Shown: positions 5,484 to 41,173 of the stretch, in pieces
Numbering within the stretch: the stretch's first letter is position 1
Layout: every line of letters starts with the position of its first letter
Assembly: GCA_030248135.1 (NCBI GenBank)
Contig: JASANC010000992.1
Coordinates: forward strand, 24,244 to 88,243
DNA length: 64,000 nt
Direction of reading: 5' to 3'
From: Theristus sp. LFF4_11
Taxonomy: Eukaryota > Nematoda > Chromadorea > Monhysterida > Xyalidae
Notes under the pieces: generated by a model
The model's database searches: none
Seen by the model: only the letters and a program-made list of their open reading frames with translations
Told to the model about the DNA's origin: nothing
Program-made: the position numbers and the translations under genes

Positions 5484-8400
5484 ATGAGCTGGAGCGGGAA
5501 CGACGGTGCTCAACAGACGTACCCGGACGGTAACGGCCCGCTCGGGTACGCCGGTTCGTCATCGCAAACCGCGGGCAGTCTGCCGCATCAGCAACCGCCA
5601 CCGCTGCCTCCATTTGCGCAGAATGTGCTCAATGCTCCCGGCCAAGAGCACGGGTCACCGCAAGCGTGGCACGGCACTCAGCAGCAGCAACAACGGGGCT
5701 CAGTGGCACTTGATGAGCGCGCGCGCATCATTCGTGCCGCGGAGCGCGTCATGAAAACGCCGGATGGGTTCAAAGCTATTCAGGTGGGTTGCCATTTGCG
5801 CAAGAGACGATGTTTCTGCTGTTAGCCAGGTGAAAGAATGTCGCGATGTCGTGTTTTGTGTTCTCCAATCTGGTTAATGATGCGGGGAAATGATGTGAGT
5901 GAATGGATTTTATAATAATGCTGCGGGAACGGATTAGGAGGCCGATTTCATGCGGATGCGTCGAAGATCAGAGAGGCCAACCGGTCGAATTTGTCGTTCG
6001 ATTTCGTACACTCACAGCAATGTTACGGAGGCACACAAACAAACACACAGGCATACACGTGGGTACCATGTTGCATCCGTTCACGTGTCATATCACACGT
6101 GTCCGGACTAAAATGATGTCATTTGCTGGAAAAACGCCCGTTTGTCAAAGTACAGGCACTAAAATGTCAGTTTTGTGTGACTGATTCGACATTCACCATT
6201 TGTTTACGGGCAGAAATCGGTTAAACGGAAAGTCTGGTTTGCTGTGAACGGCAAGCGCATGTTTTGCGGCACATGACGTCATTTCAGTGGGACACGTTTA
6301 AAAAATAGGTCATACATGTCTGCTACCGTGCTTATTTGTGTCACACTCCAAAGTGCGCTGTCTTCCAGCGGGGAACTTCAGATATGTGGAAGGAAGGCGT
6401 TGCCACTGTTCTCCAGGACATCCTCGTCTCGGGCATCTCGTGTCAGAACACGGCGCTGACGTTGGGTGCGTGGCCGTTTGGCACTGTCGGCTATTTTTTA
6501 CCGAAATATCTGATGCGTCGAGCCGGCAAAACGCCCGGCGTCGCGTTGCCCCTGTGCGGCATGGCGTCCGGCGCGGTGTTCGGATTCAGGTTGGTGCAGT
6601 TAAGGCCCGTTTATACCTGACGTATGCGCGTACGGCACGGCACGGCACGTCACTTTAGGTCCTGTGTTATTGCATACTGCCGTTCGTACAGACGTAGGCA
6701 TGTACGGCACGTCACGTCACTTTAGGTCTCGTGTTATTGCGCACTGCCGTTCGTACCTGACGTACGTCGACGTACGTCTGCATACGTCAGGTATAAACGG
6801 GCCTTTACAGTGTACAGTCTAACTCTATGGACATATCCGACTGGCTGATTGGTTTGTGATCGTGATGCGTCCGTTCTATGCAAAAACTAAACTCCGCCTC
6901 CCTACTGCACACGATGCACGCATCAGCTGCACGTGTGTGCATCCAGCTAATTAGCTAGTTGGATATATTGGCCAGGTGGACTGTATTTTATTGATTCGCC
7001 ACTTGAATTTTTTGTCATTCATGTATTGCTTGCCTTACGAGAACTATTTTTATTTGATGTTGATTTTAATGTATTAAACGTGTTTTTAGCCTAGTTGGCT
7101 TGAACTGCACACGCACACTGATCAAACCAATGAATGAACGCGTCGCCGGCTTAGTGGCGCAGCAGATGCAACAAGAACCGGTAATGGACAAAAATTAAAA
7201 AACGATTTTTTAATTGTACCGTATTTGTAAAGTAAAGTCCAATCAACGCAAAAAGTAGTGTGCGTCCACGGAGTACGGTATCTACCGTATTTGGTCTCGA
7301 TACGATTTTACTGAGACGGGCGTGCGTTCATTTGCGTCCCGTTATTTCCGGCCCACGCATTTCCGGCCCAACATTTCCGGCCCACTCATTTCCGGCCCAC
7401 TCATTTCCGGCCCGCCCATTACCGGCCCCGTTCATTTGCGTCCCACGCATTTCCGGCCCACTCATTTCCGGCCCACCCATTACCGGCCCAGCCCAATAAT
7501 TCGCTTCAGTGACTTCAACTACCACCCACTGCTATATTTCATTAGGAAACTCACCTTGATCAGGCGGTTACACTTTGAACTAGGGTTCGATTTTTTTAAA
7601 TTCTTTTTTCAATCGGATTTTTTCGTGATGCATCATTATTAAGAGATGTGCATGTGCTGTAGCGGTGCCCCTGCCCTATAACACAGGAAAGAAAAAATGC
7701 AAAAACTAAATTGATCATTTTCACCTTATCAAAAAGGCTTGGCTTAGGATTAGGATTAGGTTTAGGATTAGGAATGATTAGGATTAGGAAACACAACCTG
7801 GTTGTGGATCCACTGATCCACATGTCCAAATTTGGTTAGAGGGGCAATTTTCATAAAAGTTTTTGCTAATTTTAAGGATTAAAATGATTGAATTTGGCTC
7901 TGTGTTCAATGCAAAATTCAAACTCAGCGCGTCAGCGCGGTTCTAAAGCTCTTATTTTTGTCGACCCATGTGTTGTTGTCATTGAAATTGAAAGTGCTAA
8001 ATCAATCGCAACAAAGCAATAAATAAAAACACAACTGATTCATCGACGAAATTCAAACTGAGACATTTGTTCCAATGTCAGGAACAAATCGGAGCGAAAT
8101 GAAAACTAAAACCGAAATGAAAAATTAAATATTTTTGTTAAAAGCATGTCGGTGAGCAGGTAGTACAGTTTAGAGTGCAGTTTCAGTTTATTTTCGTTGT
8201 CCGTGGCGAAATACAGCGAAGGAAGAACTGATTATTGGGCTGGGCCGGTAATGGGCGGGCCGGAAATAAGTGGGCCGGAAATGAGTGGGCCGGAAATGTC
8301 GGGCCGGTAATGGGTGGGACGGTAATGGGTGGGCCGGAAATGTCGGGACGCTAATGCGTGGGCCGGAAATGCGTGGGCCGGAGTTGACCCCGCACCACTG

Positions 8401-10334
8401 AGACGTCCTTCAGAAAGAGCATTTATTGCAACAACATTGTTCTGTTGTTGTCTCATGTTCTGTTGTGGTCACAAGTGACTTTCTTCGTGTGTTTGAGGAT
8501 TGTGAGATTTCGTGCCGGGACCAAATACGGAAGATAAGGTGATCCGGAGATTTCGTATTAACTGGGAGGGAACTCATTTTTCGGCGTTTCACTGTCAAAA
8601 ATCAAAATTTTGTCTTTCTGCGCTGACCAACTTTGTTGGAAAAGAGAGTCTCACACGGTTGATGTTACACGTTTCTTACAAGTAGCCATGTGCTGAGACA
8701 AGCCGTCTGTCGCTGTGTCCTTGACTGGCACACGTGACGAAGCATATTTATGGTAGTTTGTCGAGAAGGCTGGTTGCGGCTGGCCGCGAAGAAAAAGAAA
8801 AAAATGAATGCTTGTTTTCGTTGGCGATCGTGTTCGTTCGTTTGTGACACGATTCATTCCTTTTGAAAGCAATATTTCATCTACCTGCTCCGGACAAAAA
8901 AGCGTAGAATTACGCACACCTTTTACATTCACCACACTTCTGCGGATGTCATGAGCTTTGACCACCGAAGTAGCGCCCAGAGATCATCTGTAGTTGTTGC
9001 TCCACTAATGTCGGGAACGTTTCGACGCACCTGATGGTAAACACTCCACTCTCGCTAAAACCCACCAAAGCACGAACGTTGCGGTTCCAACACTTCGTGG
9101 CAATCGTGTTGCTCAAATGACAATTGACAACAAAAAAACGGTCTGTTTTTCGCGTCCGCTATTTTCTCGAGTCTCTCCAGGGCGGCCTCGACGTGAACGC
9201 CCGCGAGTCGCACACGGTCAATCGACTGGCGAACACGGTGCTCGACTTCATCCATCAGAACACGCTGCTGCAGGACGAACTGAATCGGCGCACGACGCAC
9301 ATCTTCCAGGGGTGCTCGGCGAAAGGCATCGGCGTCGGACTCTGTGTCGGCGGTCGGTGTCAGGGTAGAGATTTTGTATTGCTTTGCTACAGTCGAAAGC
9401 GGCATTCATGAAGCAGCATCTAGTGACGCGTAGTTGTATCAAAACTTGGGGACATTCATGTTGTGACCGCACAGCTATGTTAAAACACAGCTGCGCGGGC
9501 ACTAAATACTGCAACATGAATGCGCCTTTAGCTACGTGTGCAGTGTCACTGCAAATACTGCGCCATGGTTGGCGCCTTAAAATTTAGACACCATAATGGC
9601 GCAACTGTTTTCAAGGTATATCTTACTCCGCACTCGAACCAGACATAATGCATCTATTTAGCTAGTCACGTGGTCTGGTTTCTAAGTTGGCTTGGCATGG
9701 ACAGGAAGATCTGACTCCTCCTACAAACTCAACTTCGTCACACCCTCCTGTCAAACTCCGCTCAAACGTACACCAAACAAACCAGTAGCAAAACTCACTT
9801 TCAATCACACACACGCAGGCGCCTCAATGGGCGCCACATACGCGTACGCACTCAGCCGGGGCAACGCGTCGCTGTTCCTGGCGACCGTCTGGCGTGTCGT
9901 GCTGCCTCGGGCGCTGTTCATCTCGCTGTGCGCCGCCGTGCTGACGCAGTACTGGTGCATGGACGGACGTGCGAACCAGTTTCTGCAGCGTCGCAGCTTC
10001 GACGAATCGCCGTCGTCGTCGTCGGAGTTCCAGCGCGGTTCTACGGCTCCACCTCCGTCTTCGTCGACGTTTCCACCACCGTCGCCGCAGTCGGCTGACC
10101 TACAATCGTCTGATGTGTATTCGGCGGTCAGTTGGGACGACTTTTTTCTCTCAACTTGCTCGCTGGCTTTACTTGCGGTGTCGCAAGTCCTGTACGTGCA
10201 GCCACGGTGTACGTTTGTTTTTGTGCTTCCAGGACCTTCAATCCCCGCCAGCCATTGGTGCGTCTGAGTTCTACCAGCCGCCTCCGGCCGAGGCGTCGCT
10301 CTCAGCAGAAAGCATCGATTTTCGTCGACTTTGA
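5484..10334 (+). CDS. Unrecognised membrane protein, 401 aa, six exons
   Basis: I do not recognise the family. Exons are 5484-5783, 6369-6589, 7090-7180, 9181-9364, 9819-10126 and 10233-10334; phases agree at all five junctions and give 1206 coding bases. An acceptor (TTTTAG at about 5432) precedes the ATG by 51 bases with no upstream exon seen, as expected for trans-splicing. Residues 1-70 are Pro/Gln/Gly-rich and probably disordered. Hydrophobic glycine-rich segments follow near 128-142, 153-176, 248-266 and 285-303. The tail (from about 325) is Ser/Pro-rich and ends SIDFRRL. The two halves have a similar pattern (loop, Gly-rich helix pair), so an internal repeat is possible but unproven. 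An alternative model would end at 7195, where exon 3 reads through to a stop, making two genes. Five mobile elements or satellites lie in its introns. Confidence 0.65.
6095..6300 (+). mobile_element. About 205-bp MITE with AAACGTGTCC ends, copy 1
   Basis: The ends are ACACGTGTCCGGACTAAAAT and ATTTCAGTGGGACACGTTT, with inner TGA(T/C)GTCA blocks. Near-identical copies are at 28490-28694 (PIAS intron) and 37710-39196 (minus, interrupted by other elements). All share the interior GACTGATTCGACATTCACC. It lies in intron 1 of the 401-aa gene. Confidence 0.75.
6601..6807. mobile_element. MITE of the TAAAGGCCCGTTTAT family, copy 2
   Basis: The ends TAAGGCCCGTTTATACCTGA and TCAGGTATAAACGGGCCTTTA form a near-perfect inverted repeat. 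It is the reverse orientation of the copy at 3221-3427. It starts only 11 bases after the exon 2 boundary of the 401-aa gene, just beyond the donor GTTGGT. Confidence 0.75.
6815..6983. mobile_element. 169-bp MITE flanked by TA, copy 2
   Basis: The ends CAGTCTAACTC and GTGGACTG lie inside TA dinucleotides at 6813-6814 and 6984-6985. Inner GGCTGATTGG pairs loosely with CTAATTAGCTAG. It lies immediately next to the MITE at 6601-6807, in intron 2 of the 401-aa gene. Confidence 0.65.
7260..8405. repeat. Inverted pair of (ATTTCCGGCCCACTC)n minisatellites around a telomere-like tract
   Basis: A GC-rich minisatellite with a unit near 15 bp runs through 7335-7495, and its reverse complement runs through 8237-8385. 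Between them is a telomere-like tract, (GGATTA)n and (GGTTTA)n, at 7731-7790. The left side opens with the palindromic block TACGGTATCTACCGTA (about 7273). Everything lies in intron 3 of the 401-aa gene, so the block is probably one composite mobile element. No transposase reading frame was seen. Confidence 0.65.
9398..9534. mobile_element. Foldback element with GCGGCATTCATGAA arms
   Basis: AAAGCGGCATTCATGAAGCA at the left is mirrored by TGCAACATGAATGCGCCTTT at the right. The centre holds two further palindromic stretches (GCGTAGTTGT and ACAGCTATG...ACAGCTGCG). Same family as 2851-2947. It lies in intron 4 of the 401-aa gene. Confidence 0.6.
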
Positions 10335-30000: not shown

Positions 30001-33000
30001 ATTGCAGCGCAACGTGAACTGCGGCGGGAAATCGTCTTTCTGTTCAGTGGTTGGATCGAGCAGAAACGAGCGAAACTGAATCTCAGTGCGCGGCAGCGGA
30101 TGCTTCTCCGAGTCGTAACTAAAAAAAACAAGCGCAAAATAAGATTGTTCAGTGGAATAAAAAATGATGCTTGGTTGAAAAAAAACTTGCATTCCGTGAC
30201 AAAATGTTGTTCATTACACAAAAGCTGCATGGTAAAAATATGTTGTTCGCCACAAAAATGTCGCTGGTAAAACATGGGAAGAAAACAAAACAACCTGAAT
30301 ATTCAGTCAGGACAGGACATCAATATTTTGAAAAAATCGGTGGCGTTTTGTTTGAAAATTGTTCGAAATCAAAAATATCATGAATTGGTATTCGCCGCAA
30401 CACCAGATCCGTAATCCACGTGCCCCACTGAAAAAACCAATCCAAGCAAACCACCCCGACGATCCAAAGTCATTGCGGACGCACTTCAACTGATTCACCA
30501 CATTCGACGGAATCGTGAACTCGGCGATGTTCTCCACCATTTTCTGCGGCCCGCTCGGCACGAGCATCGTCGGCCCAATCACCGTTGCTATCGGATCGAA
30601 GAACGGCAGCGTCACCATTCGCACCGTCGGCAGATCGGAGCGACCGAACGTCGGCGTTGCGGCGTCGTTTGGCTGTGCGCCGCCGCCGCCGCCGCTGATC
30701 GATCCGGAGGAGTGAGTTGACTGTGACATCTGTGACGGTGAGTGTGGCGATTGGTGTTTTAAGATTGTAGAAGATGCGGCAACACAAACGTTTGTCTGTT
30801 CTTTTGGTTCTGCGATTGCAGATGCAGACAATCGAATTATGTTGCATGCTCGTAGCGGCGCAATCCAAAATTGTGCCAAAGTAACTCTCGCGACATTCGA
30901 GCGGATCCCATGGACTCACTCGGGTCGCTTTAAGAATTTTTTTGAATTGCCGCGTTCCGCATGGATATCTATGCGCGCGCATTGAGTCGCAGAACCAAAT
31001 GTCTATCTCTTGGTTCTACCACTCACTGTGGTTGCAGATGTTCAAAAGGAAATTATTTCACGCTTGATGCGGAAAGTTGCCAATGTTGACAAAGTAGCCC
31101 GGTCGTATCTCAAGGGCTCCGGTCTCGTCAGCAATTGAGAATTTCCGCGTCAAGCACGAAAGTCACTTGCTATTCTACACTACACGCACATTAGGTCGCA
31201 GATAGGGATGGATCCCGCAAATTTGCCGGAATCCGGGCCGGATCCGGCAAAAGCCCATTCCGGCCGGGCCGGATCCGGCAAAAATTGCCGGAATGCGGAC
31301 CGGAATGGCCTTTTTATGTCTAAAAAACATCTACGCACATTTCGTCGCTTCTTCATCACATTTTCAGCATAAAACAGCACAGACACAGAAACAAAATCAG
31401 CAAGAAACAGCACGTGAACCAACCAAAAATTACAACAACAACAATTGACAAAATTCACATCGCATAGGGATAATCAAGTGCTGGCAACACTCCATTCAGA
31501 AACATGACCTTTTCGGCGTTCTGAGTTGACAGACGAGATCGGCTGTACACAAACACCTGCCTGGCTTCAGAGAACATTCGTTCGCTTGCCACGCTTGTTG
31601 GTAGCGGTGCCAGGTATCTGCGCGCGATTGTCGATAGTTTGGGGTATTTAGACGAGTTCAGCCGCCAAAAGTCTAGCATTCGATCACTTTTGTCCGGTTC
31701 GTCGATAAAATCATCCGACTCGTACATATTCATTTCGCCGCGCAGTTCGTCTTCGAGACTGGATTCGCCTGACGGGTTGCGCGGTCGCGCAGCGTGAAAC
31801 TCGATGCCTCCGTAGAAGCCAGTCGATTTCTTTTTTGGTTCGGGCTCGCGTTCACTTTCGTCATCGTCGTTGTTTGCAATCTCGGATGTATCGTCGCAGT
31901 TTGTGGGCGTCTCCGGTCGTTTCAAGATTTTCTTTGCAATGTGAAGTAGTTCACAACGAATCGCGCCTTCATTTTCGAAGACGACTGCAGTATTCTTGAA
32001 TCGCGGATCAACGTACGTGGCCATGATGTTGGATTCGTTGTGGAAAAGCGCACGGAAGCGTGTGTCGATGCTGGTCAGCAGCGTTTCTTTCGTCGTACCA
32101 ATGCCACTCGCATCGACTTGTTCAATGCGCTGCTTCAGTGCGCAAACGGCGGGCAACACCATTGAAAAGGATTCGTCGTCTCGTGGATTCGTCGTTGGGA
32201 AGGGGGGTTATCGGGTTTTAGGGGGTCACGGCACCCCGCACACCCACGGTAACACACGTCGCTAAAATCGCTGGTGTTCTGGAGCTCACAAAAAAGCAAC
32301 TGTTTGACAGCTAACTGAATATGACCAACGAAAATGGCTGATTTCAAAAAAAAAACCTGCTATTGTTCATCAACAACGTCGGCCAAAAGCTGGCAGCCAC
32401 GTTTTTTAAAGTGGACGATGCTGCACATAAGTTTACCACTCAAGACAAAAGCAGTGAACCATTTACGCGTACCATTGAACAGAACACTAAACTAAAGCAA
32501 CGCTCACTGATCACATGTCAAATGCACAACAACAAAACCAACAAAGCACCGAAACAAATTTGTCAAACCATTGAACAGCTCTGAAACGGAGGAATCAACT
32601 TGTTAATTCGCGGGTCTCGGCCATTCCGGCCGGATCCGGCAAAATTGCGCCGGAATCCGGACCGGATCCGGATCCAATTTTAGGCGCCGGAATCCGGAAT
32701 CCGGACCGGAACCGGCTCCATCCCTAGTCGCAGACTAGAAAAATTTTGATCTCAAGCAACCCAAATCTAAAACAATAATAATCCAAAATAAACCAAACCA
32801 AAAACAATCCAAAACCTGAACCACTCACATGTCGCGACACCGGCTGCTGTATGACATTGCGGCCGTAGCTGGAGCTGCTCGTCGATGGTGCCGTCGTTGA
32901 CATCGAGTTCGTGAAGGCGGACGCAATGACGGCACGGCCGCCGGACGCAGATTGGCTGCCGTACGACTGCGCGTTGTTGTTGTTGTTGTTGACGTGAGCA

Positions 33001-34069
33001 CGTGATGACGACGATGATGAGTATTGGTACTGTTGCACGGTGTACGCAGACTGCTGCACATGACAGTTGTGGGTTGTCAGTTTTGCTTGCGGCATTTCGT
33101 CTGGTTCGTGCGGCACAGAAATATTCATGTCGCATGTTGCACTATGTTTCTTTAAACCTGTCATCTTTTTTTATCAAAATACGGAAGCCCGCTAAAGACG
33201 AAAGAACGGCACCGGGTGCGAAGAGGACACATTTCGCCTCAAAGGAGTTTCTTGATTCCCCGACCATTCCGATTCATTCTTCTTCAATGCGAAATTTCTC
33301 GCGCTTTGTATTCTGCCAAAAAGTGACAGGTTTGAAGAAATATACTGTAGCAGCATACGACGTTGAACTGTATGCGACGACAAGGACAATTTCCAATTCA
33401 ACTTAATGCCAGTAACCCCAACAATAAACTTCGATTGTTTCATGGGCGAACACACAACGGAATGTCAATTCTCCTGACTCTCTCGGTGTTTTCACTTCTT
33501 GAAAGTACTGAGAAAAAACCACAAAACAGAAAACAACGGAACAAACCTGCGTTGAGTGAGCACCGCCGGATGAACTGGATGCGTGATGGCCGCTGCTGGT
33601 GCCGTACATCCGAGAACGGGGCATGTTGCTGGGCGCTGGCAAGCTGCGACCTCCGCGAAGACTGAAACATTGAGAAACAGCACTAAACATCATCGAACCT
33701 GGACATCAGCAGAATCTTGCAAAATCAACCACCCTGGGCATAAAGCCACAAACGACCGGGATCGTTAACCACACCCTGACCGGTGTTTAGCGAGCGTACA
33801 TGAAATTCGAAAATTGGCCTCAAGCAATACAATAACCAACCAGCTGGAACTGTGAGACGCGTCAGAATAAAAAGATCGGAGAACAACAAAGAGCATTTCG
33901 ACGACGGACGGACTAACACGTATAAATCCTTGATTTTTCGGTGTAACTCGAGACTCTTGTCGACGTTACTCAAGATACGATTCAGCAACTCGGATTTCTT
34001 GCCGATTCGCGATAAATTAACGGCGGTCAAAATGTCTTGCAGTTCGTGCACTCGTAACGGCGTTAGCAT
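20741..34069 (-). CDS. PIAS: PIAS-family SUMO E3 ligase, about 1070 aa, at least 16 exons
   Basis: A nuclear SUMO-protein ligase like human PIAS1 and C. elegans GEI-17. Exons (plus coordinates, 5' first): 34069-33920 SAP (LRVHELQDIL...KIKDLY); 33661-33547; 33053-32829; 30729-30455 and 30118-29980 and 29657-29520 PINIT (LPFFDPIATVI, DFPPQFTLRCN, SRPVDLTSY); 28979-28874 and 28804-28731 (ESLRVSLKCP); 27174-27005 SP-RING with zinc ligands in KCRHLQC and CPVC; 26473-26337; 26082-25925; 25826-25704; 25089-24894; 24451-24123; 23744-23529; 21740-21483; 21148-20741. Phases agree from 33661 onward. The SAP exon ends in phase 0 while the next needs phase 2, so a small exon is missing. The acceptor TTTCAG lies three bases before the ATG, fitting SL trans-splicing. 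Two candidate SUMO-interacting motifs (IIELSDSEDEND, SIILLDDDS) and a polyQ run lie in the tail. Assignment of the last exons to this gene rests on phase continuity. Confidence 0.93.
20985..21054 (-). repeat. CAA/CAG trinucleotide run coding polyglutamine in PIAS
   Basis: The minus strand reads about 22 consecutive Gln codons, mostly CAA with a few CAG, in the final PIAS exon. The run lies between an Arg-rich stretch (ERQEAARR) and PPVTSTSSA. CAA predominance makes it less prone to hairpin slippage than a pure CAG tract. Confidence 0.85.
22510..22700. repeat. Two copies of the TACxGTATxTACxG-type palindromic repeat
   Basis: A copy at about 22508-22560 reads AAATACGACATCTACCGTAATC then TCGGTCTCGACACGA. 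An inverted copy at about 22645-22700 reads TCGTGCCAAGACCGGATGCA then GTAAATACCCGTAATCCGTG. Relatives at about 7266-7312, 48297-48345 and 56930-56975 have the fuller core GTACGGTATCTACCG followed by (T/A)TxGGTCTxGxxACGA. They lie in a PIAS intron and look like ends of one inverted-repeat element of about 190 bp. Confidence 0.5.
26098..26190 (+). repeat. (CAAT)n microsatellite
   Basis: Roughly 23 tetranucleotide units of CAAT/CAAC with two GTGCAT interruptions lie in a PIAS intron, just upstream (transcript sense) of the exon ending at 26082. Confidence 0.9.
27720..28118. mobile_element. About 400-bp inverted-repeat element in a PIAS intron
   Basis: The left end TAAAGACCCGTTCATACTGA is mirrored by CCAGTATGAACAGGTC at the right, with inner GACGTACGTCAGCGG. 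The ends resemble the TAAAGGCCCGTTTAT MITEs. The interior carries a 72-bp block (27958-28029, CTCCTAGTCTGCAACTGG...GGCCATACTG) that recurs at 61826-61897. Confidence 0.5.
28490..28694 (+). mobile_element. About 205-bp MITE with AAACGTGTCC ends, copy 2
   Basis: The copy closely matches 6095-6300 along its whole length, with ends AAACGTGTCCGGGCTAAAA and TTTCAGTGGGACACGTTT. It lies within 40 bases of a PIAS exon boundary (28731). Confidence 0.75.
31195..32734 (-). mobile_element. hAT-family DNA transposon remnant with 8-bp target duplication
   Basis: The element proper is 31203-32726. It is flanked by the exact 8-bp duplication GTCGCAGA (31195-31202 and 32727-32734), the hAT hallmark. The terminal inverted repeats begin TAGGGATGGA on both sides. 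Subterminal regions are packed with GGATCCGGCAAAA and CCGGAAT motifs, which are likely transposase-binding repeats. It sits in the PIAS intron between exons 33053-32829 and 30729-30455. At about 1.5 kb it is shorter than autonomous hATs, so it is probably internally deleted. Confidence 0.92.
31455..32162 (-). pseudogene. hAT transposase C-terminal fragment, 235 codons
   Basis: The frame carries the hAT C-terminal dimerisation region. Key blocks are DFWRLNSSKYPKLSTIARRYL, then the family signature PTSVASERMFSEA, then LSTQNAEKVMFLNG, close to the C-terminal end. The N-terminal zinc finger (BED) and the first catalytic part are not visible upstream within the element, so the enzyme is truncated. 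The first codon listed (32162) is GTG-like and may not be a real start. Confidence 0.85.
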
Positions 34070-36263
34070 GTACTGAAATACACGGGTAACAACATCAGCG
34101 AAACACTTTGATATCGAGTCGAAGCTCCGTGCAGTCAAGAAGCTGTAAAACATTTGCAATTTGTGAATTCATGCGTATTCTGCTGCATGTATTTTGAATT
34201 TGGCGATGCTGGCTGATTGGTTTTGTGGAGCTGGACAAACCGATCAGTGAGTGAGGTGATCACCGGCGATTTACAGTTGCGACTCCACATTTCGGCTATT
34301 TGGGCACCCAAAATAAAAAACTTCAGCTGGCAGCTCAGCTGATAGGTACTTTCAACATTCAACATTTATCGTGGAAAAATGCAAAAATTTTTTTTGAGTT
34401 ATCCTAATTTTTGATCACCAGTACCACGCTCAGGCTCAACCAGTCCAAACAGCTACAGGAAGGACTGGTTTCATTTCACTGCTTCACCCAACTACAACAA
34501 CAATGTGAACAAGCGCACATTTATTTCGTCTCTGGTGTACGGCGGCTCGTGAATGGGAATGGACATAATGATGTGGTGCGCCCGTCGTCGTCAGAAGGGT
34601 TGCCGTCGATGATGGACCGCAAGAACATTGGCTTTTGAAGAAAGGACGTCGTAAAAATGATGTCAAAAAGAACGAATGCGAATCGTGACGGTGAGCTGAG
34701 CAATCTGAAAGAAAAGGGTAAATTATCGTGATGATTGGTGAGGTGATTCCTCCAGATGGACCACAGACGCTCAGCTCATCATTTCATGCATGCTTCTCAA
34801 ATAATGGTGTTCAAGAGATTCAGCAGATTTTTGAACCGTGAATTAAGCAATGAAACTGATCTGTCAAATTTTTTTTCTTTTTCTCAGTATTCAAAAAGAA
34901 AGAAGCACAAATCGACCGACATTGCTGTGTCAAAACTCAAAACCAAAATTCAGACTCGAAGAGGGCGAATCTCCTTGCGCGACCGTCGATTCGACATCGT
35001 GATCTTTGAGATTCAGACAGAAACCAAATCAAAACAGATGAATTCAATAATTTCATCACCGACAGAAACAAACACGCCACCTCTTGCACGACACGCCAAA
35101 TGACACAAGCCATACCCATTTCCGTACGCATGTGTTGCGTTTGTGTTTTTGTGTATTTGCGTTATGTGTAATAGCGAAACGTGAAAACCCGCCCACTAAA
35201 AACGCGTGTTCAATAATATATGCATCCATTCAGCATATAACACACACGCGTACAGAGAATGAGCAGAAACGTGCTGCATATAACATCGCGAAGGTTTCTC
35301 GTGTATTTCCATTGCCGCGCATAGTTTTTGAATAAAAATCAATAAACTAACACGTGATTTGCATGCAAGTGGGCGGAGCCAATGAAACATCAAAAAAACC
35401 TGATTTATGAAAGAAAGAAATCAGTGTCACCAACTGTAGACCAGGAGTACCTGCTCGCAGTTTCAACTAGAGATGTCAAGAAAAAAAAAATTTCTGTTTT
35501 TTTTCTTTTTAAAAAAAATTTTTTTTAATTTTTTTTTAAATGAAAGTTGTTCAGAATTTTTCAGGGAGTCCGAATATCACTATCTGAGGAGCCACCGACT
35601 TACCATATGACCCCCACTCATATGGGAGGAGGGTGAAAATTTCAGACTTGGTTTCGGCGACCCCATTTTCCCACCGACGACATCACGTCTCGTGTTTTGC
35701 CTCTCAATTCACCTCAAATAACATGGAAACAAGTTCCACAACAAACCGGTGTGATCATGCTGACGACACGAGACGAAACAGCAACGAGCAACCAACGAAG
35801 CTACGCTTGCAGTGGCAGACAGTGCAATTTCCACCTTTCGAGATCCTGAAAAACGATGCGTAAATGTGAGTTCTCTGCTTCTATCTCACCTTAGCGACAT
35901 CGGAATTTGTTGAACTAGCCTTTGCGACGCTCAAGTACTTCAATGCGCGAGTCGATCATCACTCACCAAGGCTGAAAACAGTCGATAAATCAATCCAGAA
36001 TACCACCTGCAGCGTTGAAGACTAAGTGACAAGGTAAAGTCAAAGAAAATTTTTGTTGAACTTTCGAAAAATTATGCCAAAAACGGCATTTTCAGGGCAC
36101 ATTAGAGAAAAAATTTCAAAAATTTTTAATAAAAAAATGCTCATTTTTTTTTACTTTTTTTTTAAATTAAAAAAAAATTTTTTTTGACCCTTACATCTCT
36201 AGTTTCACCGTGACCTGGTGAAAAATCAAAAAGTGTGTAATTTATTTGACTGACGCGGAAGCA
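34070..36263. other. Region between PIAS and UPF0598 genes
   Basis: Divergent promoters of the two genes should lie here. I see no supported gene. A short minus-strand frame at about 34632-34521 (PMFLRSIIDGN...) has an acceptor-like CAAAAG before it and stops after about 35 codons; it cannot be tied to anything. A hAT-like AT-rich element occupies 35468-36201. Confidence 0.5.
35468..36201. mobile_element. AT-rich hAT-like non-autonomous element, 734 bp
   Basis: The ends are TAGAGATGTCAAG and, reversed, TAGAGATGTAAGGG. They are flanked by GTTTCAAC (35460-35467) and GTTTCACC (36202-36209), a 7 of 8 match. Long A and T runs border each end. The interior shares AGGGAGTCCGAA and the CATATGAC...CATATG block with the element at 42713-43442. 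Confidence 0.7.
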
Positions 36264-37448
36264 ATGCGGCACTGTTCAATTCGCCGACTAATCGATGTAA
36301 ACTGCTGCTTATGCGCCAGAAAAACCGTGAACTTCAGCAAAGTGTTGCAATTTTGCGTCAAGCAACCGTTTTCGAACGAAGCCAACACGGAGCAGCAACC
36401 GTTTTCCTCGGCCAGCCTTCGCGACGTCGTTGGTTATGTGCAGGGCAACGAGCCGGAACCGGGTATTCGCGAGTATTTTTACTACATCGATCACCATGGT
36501 CAGGTGAGCTTTCCTTTGTGTGTCTGAATCATTTCGTTTTTCTCTCAAATTGTCAAATGTTTACTTTTTCAAAGCAATTTTTCTTTTGTTTGCAACTGTT
36601 TCTCGACGACGCTCGGATGAAAAACTTCACGTCGTGCTTCAAAGGTTGGTCAGCGGAGCGGAGCGGCCGGTGGGTGACATTGCGCCAGATCGAATAACTC
36701 ACATGACAAAAAAATTTCAGACAAGGACTTCTTGGCGTTCTTCTTCAAACGCCTGCGGTGCAACACAACCGGCAAATATGATCGATGGTTTCCGTACTTG
36801 AGTTTGTGCGGCCGTGAGCAGAACTTTGTTCGCTGCGACGACGTTCCAATTGTTTACACACACGTGCTGAAAGGCGTGAAACGGGTTGCAAAAAAGTCAA
36901 GAAAACGAACCGCGACTCGGGCTGATGACACCACGTCTGCTGGTGACGGTTGTTTTTCATTTCGTTCAGGCGGTCAAACCACACCTGGCAAACCAGATGA
37001 AAGGCTCGGCTTATATACACTTTATGTACTGCGGGCGGGTATGGGTTGGCTTGACCGGATTACAATTAAGTCCACAACAGTTTTCCGTTCGAATTCAAAC
37101 TTCTTCTCTGTTCTCTCTCCAGCGTCGCCCGAACAACAACAGCGTCCAATCGCGAAAACAGACGACGACGACGTTGAGCTGTTCTCGTTCAATCACGCCG
37201 GCGACCAGTTGACGGTGCCGTTCGATCCGGCCTCGCTGTGCATGCTGCCGAGCACCGGTCGCGTCTACTATCCGACGAGCTCGCAATACGGCGACGTTGC
37301 GCTCGTGCGCTCCGCGCTGGCGCTCGAGTTTGCGAAGCTGTTCGATTTTGAAAATGGCGCCGAGAATCCGCCGACTCACATTCGATGGAACAACGTGCGA
37401 ATCGAACTGAATAATCGACTGCTTGACCGCGTCCGTGACCGAACGTGA
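36264..37448 (+). CDS. C8orf82: UPF0598 protein (C8orf82 family), mitochondrial, four exons
   Basis: A conserved animal protein of unknown biochemical role, annotated as mitochondrial in mammals. Exons are 36264-36503, 36596-36644 (or from 36575), 36721-36942 and 37123-37448. Diagnostic blocks follow the human protein closely: YVQGNEPEPGIREYFYYID, then LFLDDARMKNFTSCFKD, then FFFKRLR and FPYLSLCGREQNFVRC, then VPFDPASL, GRVYYP and ALVRSALALEF. The N-terminal 60 residues are basic and Cys-rich, with no acidic residues before about residue 46, as expected for a targeting sequence. The linker after exon 3 is longer than in vertebrates. The second exon has no AG at the position homology demands (see findings). 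The first ATG is at 36264. Confidence 0.93.
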
Positions 37449-39137: not shown

Positions 39138-39270
39138 TACTTTGACAAACGGGCGTTTTTAAAGCAACTGACGTCATTTTAGTCCAGACACGTTTGAATA
39201 TGAGATACATCCACAATACGATACTTTAATTACCGGTTTTTTCACCATGTCATCCAAAAACCACGTGTGA

Positions 39271-39345
39271 ACGTAGATAATGTTGCTCACTGTTTGAATA
39301 TTGCCCAAGTGCGCAGTTCATGTTGTTCTCATAAGTGCCGCCCTC
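39271..39345. pseudogene. Flank of a decayed 5S/SL unit lacking its 5S gene
   Basis: GTAGATAATGTTGCTCACTG...TTGCCCAAGTGCGCAGTTCA matches the spacer that follows each 5S copy (GTAGACAAGGTTGCTCACTTTG...). No 5S sequence lies to its left, so this is the eroded left edge of the array. Confidence 0.65.
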
Positions 39346-39620
39346 AGGTTTTTTAAACCAAAAGATTATCAAGATTACCCAGACTATCCAAGTTATACTA
39401 AAAGTGAGCAAGCAGTCAACAAAATTTGGAAAAGTTCGGTCTTTTAATAAGGGAAAATGTCAAAAAGCCTACGACATAATAAATGCCCTTTAATAAATGC
39501 CCTCACGTTTTTCACGACTATTCGTTGGTTCTTTGTTTTTTAAACGTTTGTATCTACAGGCACCAATATTAATCGTGTTTCACAACAGAGAGACACCACT
39601 GAACTGAAGCACTTATCGTT

Positions 39621-39727
39621 GGTTTTTATCCAGATACCCAACCAAGGTAAACAAAAACACCCCCAATCTGTCACGATTCGTGGTTGTTTGTGTTATTTTT
39701 GGAACATCTGCTCACTTTTAGAGCGGC
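39621..39727 (+). ncRNA. Spliced-leader RNA gene, divergent copy 1
   Basis: The leader begins GGTTTTTATCCAG at 39621 and the donor GTAAAC follows at 39647, so the exon would be 26 nt rather than 22. The Sm-binding site ATTTTTGGAAC is at 39695-39705. It is followed by a terminal stem CTGCTC, loop ACTTTTA, GAGCGG. The mid-molecule hairpin is AATC-TGTCAC-GATT, where the other two copies have GGTT opposite AACC or ACC. The copy could be a variant leader or a pseudogene. The 3' end is estimated. Confidence 0.75.
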
Positions 39728-39813
39728 AATTGCTGATTTTATCCAACAAGGCTATTGCAAAAATGTGCAACAAGTGAACCAAATGCATTTTTTTAAATGG
39801 AAAATGTCAAAAA

Positions 39814-39931
39814 GTCTACGACACCTGGGGTTCCCAGGCCGTCTGCGATCCAAGTACTAACCAGGCCCGACGCTGCTTAACTTGCCAGATCGGACGGGAT
39901 GGCGTGCGTTCAGCGTGGTATGGTCGTAGAC
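39814..39931 (-). rRNA. 5S ribosomal RNA, copy 1
   Basis: The 118-nt gene reads, on the minus strand, GTCTACGACCATACCACGCT at the 5' end and ...GGTGTCGTAGAC at the 3' end; the termini pair. Internal blocks GCACGCCATCCCGTCCGATC, AAGTTAAGCAGCGTCGGGCC and TAGTACTTGGATCG are standard 5S, and the first is typical of nematodes. It includes the box A and C regions of the internal promoter. This copy has GCAGAC where the other two have GGAGAC. Confidence 0.97.
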
Positions 39932-40118
39932 AAGGTTGCTCACTTTGAATTTTACCCAAGTGCGGTGTGCGCAATTCATGTTTATGTTTATAAATGCCCT
40001 CACGTTTTTTCTCAACGACTATTCGTTGCTTTTTCTTTTTAAACGTTTGTATTTACAGGCACCAATATTAATCGTGTTTCACAACAGAGAGACACCACTG
40101 ACTGAAGCACTTATCGTT

Positions 40119-40225
40119 GGTTTTTACCCAGATACACGAGGTAAAGAAAAACAACCCCAACCTGTCACGGTTCGTGGTTGTTTGTGTTATTTTTGGAACA
40201 GCTGCTCACTTTTAGGGTGGCAATT
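40119..40225 (+). ncRNA. Spliced-leader RNA gene, copy 2
   Basis: The 22-nt leader (40119-40140) starts GGTTTTTACCC and ends AGATACACGAG, directly followed by the donor GTAAAG. Stem I pairs TTTTTACC with GGTAAAGA across the splice site, as in known SL RNAs. A second hairpin (AACAACC...GGTTGTT, enclosing AACC-TGTCAC-GGTT) follows. Then come the Sm site ATTTTTGGAAC (40189-40199) and a 3' stem GCTGCTC-ACTTTTA-GGGTGGC. The leader resembles C. elegans SL2, and the Sm site resembles that of SL1 RNA. The gene is divergent from the 5S at 39814-39931, whose 5' end is 187 bases upstream. Confidence 0.92.
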
Positions 40226-40346
40226 GCTTATTTTATCCAACAAAGCTACTGCAAAATGAGCAACAAGTGAACCAAATGTATTTTTTTAAATGGAAAATGT
40301 CAAAAAGTCTAAAGTCTACGACATTTAAAATTGAAAATGTCAAAAA

Positions 40347-40464
40347 GCCTACGACACCTGGGGTTCCCAGGCCGTCTCCGATCCAAGTACTAACCAGGCC
40401 CGACGCTGCTTAACTTGCCAGATCGGACGGGATGGCGTGCGTTCAGCGTGGTATGGTCGTAGAC
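40347..40464 (-). rRNA. 5S ribosomal RNA, copy 2
   Basis: The 118-nt copy is nearly identical to copy 1, with the same termini apart from GGC for GAC at the 3' end. It lies 533 bp from copy 1, matching the array period. Confidence 0.97.
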
Positions 40465-40651
40465 AAGGTTGCTCACTTTGAATTTTACCCAAGTGCGGTG
40501 TGCGCAATTCATGTTTATGTTTATAAATGCCCTCACGTTTTTTCTCAACGACTATTCGTTGCTTTTTCGTTTTAAAAGTTTGTATTTACAGGCACCAATA
40601 TCAATCGTATTTCACAACAGAGAGACACCACTGACTGAAGCACTTATCGTT

Positions 40652-40757
40652 GGTTTTTACCCAGATACACGAGGTAAAGAAAAACCACCCCACCTGTCAC
40701 GGTTCGTGGTTGTTTGTGTTATTTTTGGAACAGCTGCTCACTTTTAGGGTGGCAATT
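40652..40757 (+). ncRNA. Spliced-leader RNA gene, copy 3
   Basis: The leader (40652-40673) is identical to copy 2 and is followed by GTAAAG. The Sm site is at 40721-40731 and the 3' stem matches copy 2. The middle hairpin carries AACCACC instead of AACAACC, creating one mismatch. The unit lies 533 bp from copy 2. Confidence 0.92.
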
Positions 40758-40878
40758 GCTTATTTTATCCAACAAAGCTATTGCAAAATGAGCAACAAGT
40801 GAACCAAATGTATTTTTTTAAATGGAAAATGTCAAAAAGTCTAAAGTCTACGACATTTAAAATTGAAAATGTCAAAAA

Positions 40879-40996
40879 GCCTACGACACCTGGGGTTCCC
40901 AGGCCGTCTCCGATCCAAGTACTAACCAGGCCCGACGCTGCTTAACTTGCGAGATCGGACGGGATGGCGTGCGTTCAGCGTGGTATGGTCGTAGAC
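40879..40996 (-). rRNA. 5S ribosomal RNA, copy 3
   Basis: A 118-nt copy with one change against the others in the block CTTGCGAGATCGG (plus strand; the others read CTTGCCAGATCGG). After it the shared spacer continues only to about 41040, which marks the right edge of the array. Confidence 0.96.
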
Positions 40997-41173
40997 AAAG
41001 TTACTGACTTTGAATTTTACCCAAGTGCGGTGTGCGCACTTATTGTTGATGTTTCTACGCACGCACACGTGGCATCAGCATGCTCATGCTCATGATCCAC
41101 TAGCGCGCGTGCACACGCTCCGGCCCCAACAAAAACATGTTCAAAACGCAGTTTTTCTGACATCTTCCTTCTT

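Follow-up and report, generated by a model that had tools for sequence, protein, structure and literature searches.

A small, partly decayed array of divergent 5S rRNA and SL2-like spliced-leader RNA genes in the nematode Theristus sp.

We analysed a stretch of 64,000 nucleotides of Theristus sp. LFF4_11 (hereafter the window), located on contig C640 of an assembly of 159.4 Mb in 3744 contigs. The nematode cuticle-collagen N-terminal domain (Col_cuticle_N, Pfam PF01484) has 84 matches in this assembly and none in 14 control genomes, all of them prokaryotes. A search of the assembly for COX1 had no match. The window contains three 5S rRNA genes on the minus strand (108.7-114.4 bits with Rfam RF00001; cut-off 38 bits) in alternation with three plus-strand genes for spliced-leader (SL) RNA. 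The initial annotation had described this alternation, which stands, together with a 533-bp period; the latter holds for the 5S genes, whose starts are spaced by 533 and 532, but not for the SL-like gene starts (39621, 40119 and 40652), spaced by 498 and 533. The features of the array are as follows.

39263..39280 (approximate), minus strand: remnant of a 5S 5' end, then its upstream element; partner of SL gene a (direct repeat D8; compared with the corresponding part of the first complete 5S gene)
39574..39594, plus strand: promoter element of SL gene a, PSE-like, CGTGTTTCA N9 GAC, 47 nt ahead of the leader
39621..39731 (3' end approximate), plus strand: SL RNA gene a, diverged
39621-39646, plus strand: leader of gene a (26 nt), followed by donor GTAAAC; Sm-like site ATTTTTGG at 39695-39702
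39813..39931, minus strand: 5S rRNA gene, then T-run; partner of SL gene b at a distance of 188 bp (RF00001, 111.8 bits)
40073..40093, plus strand: promoter element of SL gene b, 46 nt ahead of the leader (pattern match C640:64316)
40119..40225, plus strand: SL RNA gene b (Rfam SL2, 24.2 bits, below cut-off)
40119-40140, plus strand: leader of gene b (22 nt), followed by donor GTAAAG; Sm-like site at 40189-40196
40201-40207 paired with 40215-40221, plus strand: 3' stem of gene b
40346..40464, minus strand: 5S rRNA gene, then T-run; partner of SL gene c at a distance of 188 bp (RF00001, 114.4 bits)
40606..40626, plus strand: promoter element of SL gene c, with one change, CGTATTTCA
40652..40757, plus strand: SL RNA gene c (Rfam SL2, 19.8 bits, below cut-off)
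40652-40673, plus strand: leader of gene c (22 nt), followed by donor GTAAAG; Sm-like site at 40721-40728
40878..40996, minus strand: third 5S rRNA gene, at the array edge, no SL partner (RF00001, 108.7 bits)

The array is imperfect. Gene a faces only the 5S remnant, and the third 5S gene, which stands without an SL partner, carries one change that breaks one pair (a non-standard pair is marked on both sides). A T-run follows each of the three 5S copies, and the 114.4-bit score of the copy beside gene c is common to 10 of the 23 5S matches scored in the genome. Genes b and c share the leader GGTTTTTACCCAGATACACGAG before GTAAAG, and gene a carries GGTTTTTATCCAGATACCCAACCAAG before GTAAAC; the single leader at first assigned to all three genes is therefore right for b and c only, and the set is really two genes and one diverged 26-nt variant. 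The donor, the Sm-like site and the 3' stem that had been annotated can all be seen in the sequence, genes a, b and c each having ATTTTTGG and then a stem. Further support comes from a promoter element that U2 genes have as well (below). In a DNA search of the assembly these three are the only copies of the window SL type. Signs of decay in gene a and in the third 5S gene suggest that the array may be dying.

Genome-wide, the pattern CGTGTTTCA N9 GAC followed by GGTNTTTACCC occurs at 42 places, against 0 for the reversed control, and the window leader at up to 3 mismatches has 15 matches, against 0 for its control. The SL/5S observation is far beyond chance. A slightly looser pattern, after identical sequences were merged, gave a set of 36 SL gene sequences, 33 of which differ over the stretch used for the tree; this set leaves out 8 of the 42 places (contig C3624) and a gene on contig C2955, whose element differs (CGTGTTTCG). 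Three classes were distinguished. Class A (14 of 36) has the leader GGTATTTACCCATACACAACCCAAG and close variants, 25 nt long, and adjoins 5S genes on contigs C3564, C71, C230, C1143 and C288. Class B (3 of 36) consists of the window genes. Class C (19 of 36) is unlinked, with leaders of 22-23 nt such as GGTTTTTACCCATAAACTTGAG and GGTTTTTACCCAGATTCTTGAG on C1508, C1048, C3233 and other contigs, none of which has a match among the 5S matches scored. The GGTNTTTACCC start is common to the linked and unlinked classes. A maximum-likelihood tree of the 36 gene sequences, with a bootstrap that had not fully settled, separates A and B from C with support values of 100/100 and groups B with 99/96 and A with 93/89. 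There are two deep SL classes, one linked to 5S genes and one in other clusters. Within the 5S-linked class, the window represents a side array (B) that is small, divergent and in part decayed. The window leader had been taken for the 5S-linked leader of the species, a reading that is not supported: the commoner one in the assembly is the 25-nt GGTATTTACCC form on other contigs.

The divergent pairing itself is borne out well beyond the window. We found at least 23 5S matches in the genome, a lower bound since 47 of 4078 candidates were scored, and in 17 of these 23 an SL start lies on the opposite strand 172-204 bp away (both window instances at 188 bp). The six 5S matches with no SL start comprise one at the beginning of contig C3564, the outermost copy of the window array, two on C230 and single matches on C1855 and C3478. 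In the main 5S/SL array (L042, C3564:1-10000), short units of ~490-500 bp, measured between 5S starts, are mixed with long ones of ~1.1-1.26 kb. On the 12-kb contig C2955 (L037, L081), an SL gene of the unlinked type (8349) and a U2 snRNA match (10079-10270) occur together.

Known SL families were searched for in the same assembly. The SL1 leader at up to 3 mismatches has 0 genome matches (reversed control, 1), and the Rfam SL1 model (RF00198) has no match among 50 candidates scored. The Rfam SL2 model (RF00199; cut-off 41 bits) gave none among 48 candidates scored genome-wide, and six loci of classes A and C, searched with E values of up to 5, likewise had no match; the genome-wide SL2 negative is soft because the window genes score weakly when searched directly. 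The covariance-model check proposed for gene b gave a match to Rfam SL2 at 24.2 bits, which falls short of the cut-off. The SL2-like start reported for the window leader is confirmed, 18 of its 22 positions agreeing with the C. elegans SL2 sequence. This agreement, and the fact that SL2 is the only Rfam SL family with even a weak match, would suit a functional SL2 for downstream operon genes that had moved beside the 5S genes. We nevertheless consider such a relocation very unlikely, as the agreement with SL2 is almost as good in two unlinked leaders taken for comparison (16 and 17 of 22), the score lies below the SL2 cut-off, and the 100/100 split of the tree places B with the 5S-linked class A, apart from the unlinked SL2-like clusters.

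The promoter element of the SL genes was compared with that of U2 genes, of which the genome has seven matches (103.5-175.6 bits). In six of the seven, CGAGTTTCA, CGAGTTACG or CGAGTTACA followed by N9 GAC is found exactly 47 nt before the RNA; in the seventh and weakest match (C1330) the element was not found. The SL genes have CGTGTTTCA N9 GAC at 46-47 nt; gene c and the C288 gene each depart from it by one change. Because both the element and its distance are shared with six of seven U2 genes, the SL genes are probably of snRNA type; the element resembles an snRNA-type Pol II promoter, which suggests that Pol II probably transcribes the SL genes.

A GT donor is present in every one of the 36 SL gene sequences and can pair with the leader at 5-6 of 6 positions. 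Between donor and 3' stem, ATTTTTGG in genes a, b and c agrees with the Sm-type pattern A-T4-6-G, as given in a table in PMC7986045; in 8 of 11 aligned class A genes the pattern is not matched to the letter, because ATTTTTA stands there. Single-sequence folds of the three window SL genes (z -1.3, -1.3 and -0.9) have no unusual stability. Fold energy alone, at z about -1.3, was rejected as evidence, and the case for SL RNA rests on comparison instead. When 14 of the 17 A and B genes were aligned, 96.3% of cells pair in a three-stem structure, compared with 24-51% in slid versions. Both partners have changed in two pairs: pair 40/71 differs between A and B, and pair 50/59 only in genes b and c. 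The changes in stem II between A and B are partly compensatory at these columns. Two of five shuffle measures gave no support: 'pairs with a change on both sides' was as high in 82 of 500 shuffles and 'further pair types' in 500 of 500. RNAalifold found one pair changed on both sides in the same A/B alignment and, in 18 of the 19 class C genes, stem I and an inner stem with 3 such pairs. It missed the 3' hairpin of class C through misalignment; folding the 3' part gene by gene recovers this hairpin in 18 of 19 genes (class C only, without the L062 gene).

Every complete unit comprises a 5S gene, transcribed by Pol III, and, with its start ~190 bp off on the opposite strand, an SL RNA gene. Pol II probably transcribes the latter, using an snRNA-type proximal element (CGTGTTTCA N9 GAC) like that of the U2 genes. 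In the SL RNA, the leader pairs with its own 5' splice site, Sm proteins would bind ATTTTTGG, and a stem-loop forms the end. We consider it very probable that the window holds such an array, a divergent 5S-linked SL array (B) with a probable snRNA-type promoter, in a nematode in which SL1 was not found. On sequence grounds the window loci appear to be real SL RNA genes; we infer the activity and targets of leader B by kinship only.

Leaders were also found outside SL genes. At 23 other places a leader stands without a promoter, 14 times leader A (up to 3 mismatches) and 9 times a leader of the unlinked type (loci L087-L100, L029-L036 and L041, on contigs such as C1163, C980, C651, C3550 and C1318). 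These relic leaders run from at or near the first base to the donor, and the first six bases are kept in 18 of 23 (10 of 14 for A, 8 of 9 for the unlinked type). After the leader, 22 of the 23 pass into one of five shared repeats; the exception, L099, has its own continuation. Leader A and unlinked-type leaders are both carried by four of the five repeat families, or by three if the L032 leader is left out, as no exactly matching SL gene was read for it. TTTCAG, a typical splice acceptor, is kept at 8 of the 23 junctions, as if an upstream AG had been used. At L092 (C3106:44195-44242, minus strand) two leaders stand in tandem, the second lacking its first bases, lost at an AG, which looks as if a tagged copy, once inserted, had gone through another round of trans-splicing. 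The class C leader occurs at 50 places within one mismatch, more than the known SL genes. We take two of the repeat families to be LINE-like, with an ORF1 and an ORF2 start that resembles a LINE endonuclease. A Pfam search of the leader-tagged elements gave nothing over the curated cut-off, the one fragment compared with solved structures matches none, and a search with the LINE-like ORF1 had no match.

The simplest reading is that the relics look like inserted cDNAs of trans-spliced RNAs. Transcripts of the repeats would have been trans-spliced with leaders of both classes, then reverse-transcribed and inserted, and trans-splicing of the class A and unlinked-class leaders is strongly inferred from these DNA insertions. 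The tagged repeats could instead be SL pseudogenes, or repeats that inserted by chance into SL genes at the donor. Non-LTR elements that target SL genes are known, such as NeSL-1 of C. elegans, and L034 and L035, on different contigs, share ~17 bases just before the leader, a likeness below the threshold used that clean insertion does not explain, with the rest of the flanks differing. We judge this origin very unlikely. Insertion of elements into SL genes should have left SL promoter sequence upstream, and the promoter element is absent from the 60 bp upstream in all 23 relics. L093/L094 is the single pair whose 60-bp upstream flanks match at the threshold used; each relic leader begins at or near its first base and stops at the donor, and the repeat families carry both classes. 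Read as inserted cDNAs, the relics suggest that the two SL classes served the same repeat transcripts, and they offer a way to see which leaders were trans-spliced in a species for which RNA data are lacking.

Related observations have been published in other animals. In flatworms, 597 loci of mobile elements that have partial leaders but lack the other features of an SL RNA are mentioned in PMC12582326 as possible inserts of trans-spliced retrotransposons, and PMC5832876 contains a similar proposal for SL-tagged retrotransposon insertions. In the nematode described here, by contrast, the leaders are complete and those of two SL types occur on the same elements, with one tandem double leader. 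In Heterodera glycines, according to a passage of PMC6362198, many trans-spliced genes overlap repeats, among them a LINE/CR1.

Leader B itself has no relic within 2 mismatches genome-wide; the relic at C1634:123146 differs from it at 3 positions, and the donor gene of this relic was not found. The lack of a relic within that distance is one of several observations that would fit pseudogene units in a B array that has been separated from the active A array and is neither transcribed nor used any more. Only three SL copies of the window type are present in the assembly, gene a is diverged and its 5S partner truncated, and the third 5S gene has its pair-breaking change and no SL partner. Against decay of the whole array, genes b and c keep the promoter (with the one change in c), the donor, the Sm-like site, stem I and the 3' stem. 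The stem II changes between A and B are partly compensatory (40/71, 50/59), and the 5S partner of gene c has the score found in 10 of the 23 5S matches scored. We regard pseudogene status as a serious possibility that is, on balance, not the probable one.

The arrangement is known in kind; what stands out here is the combination of 5S genes linked to leaders other than SL1, another class without that link, and no SL1 found. PMC11822377 describes C. elegans 5S units that are each paired with an oppositely oriented SL1 gene, the SL being transcribed by Pol II and the 5S by Pol III. The opposite orientation of 5S and SL is the same as in Theristus. The C. elegans cluster contains SL1 in >100 units of ~1 kb; in Theristus the search for SL1 found none, 5S genes adjoin leader GGTATTTACCC (A, 25 nt) or GGTTTTTACCC (B), and assembled copies are few. 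The C. briggsae SL1 is likewise 5S-linked, according to part of PMC7986045, and SL genes near 5S are said in a passage of PMC7346339 to be common. In the literature searched, seen in part, there is no report of a 5S link to a nematode leader other than SL1; Harrison 2010 and Pettitt 2008 lay outside its scope, so this is not proof of absence.

SL2-like leaders are, judging by the title of Harrison et al. 2010, said to occur in a basal nematode. That species appears in the excerpted text of PMC7986045 as Prionchulus punctatus, with SL2-like leaders and, at the time, no genome, its gene organisation being unknown in 2021; Theristus has SL2-like leaders too, and here their genomic layout and 5S link are seen. 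The same excerpts list many polymorphic SLs in Trichinella spiralis and Trichuris muris, some of them of SL2 type, as in Theristus.

An SL2-like leader in the 5S-linked position had been proposed to bear on which leader type is ancestral in nematodes. The array by itself does not decide which type came first, because the GGTNTTTACCC start is common to both classes and the 22-nt length is probably a deletion. A longer CAAC-CAAG tail is common to gene a and class A; four of its bases are absent from b and c. With class C as outgroup, length alone gives a tie (one gain and one loss vs two gains); loss in b and c is favoured because gene a and class A have the tail sequence in common. Leader B thus probably reached its 22 nt by a later deletion, and its SL2-like 22-nt form is more likely derived than ancestral. 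A broader scenario, which we put forward as doubtful, would make the split between 5S-linked and unlinked SL genes older than SL1, with an SL2-like ancestral leader in both classes and SL1 as a later change of the 5S-linked copy. The SL2-like ancestor in this scenario follows from the 5S-linked class, in the position of SL1, bearing GGTWTTTACCC leaders like the unlinked class. A 5S link to non-SL1 leaders, together with an unlinked SL2-like class and no SL1 found, makes the age of the 5S link relative to that of the leader testable.

Several features elsewhere in the window were also recorded. A UPF0598 gene lies at 36254-37448 (plus strand); a search with it returned 28 proteins, and the 15 that are named come from molluscs, insects, a crinoid and a fish, with no nematode among those named. 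A hAT transposase C-terminal dimerisation domain (Pfam PF05699, E 1e-14) is located at 31455-32207 (minus strand), and a weak SAP-domain exon (21.1 bits vs a cut-off of 23.9), which may belong to a PIAS-like gene, at 33725-34168 (minus strand). Tandem arrays of one GGCCGGAAAT-type 15-mer occur at 7344-7490 and 8236-8382, in opposite orientation and ~0.75 kb apart. Finally, an imperfect AAGCCT/AAGCCC tandem array lies inside the contig at 50875-51095 and corresponds on the other strand to TTAGGC, the telomere unit of many nematodes.
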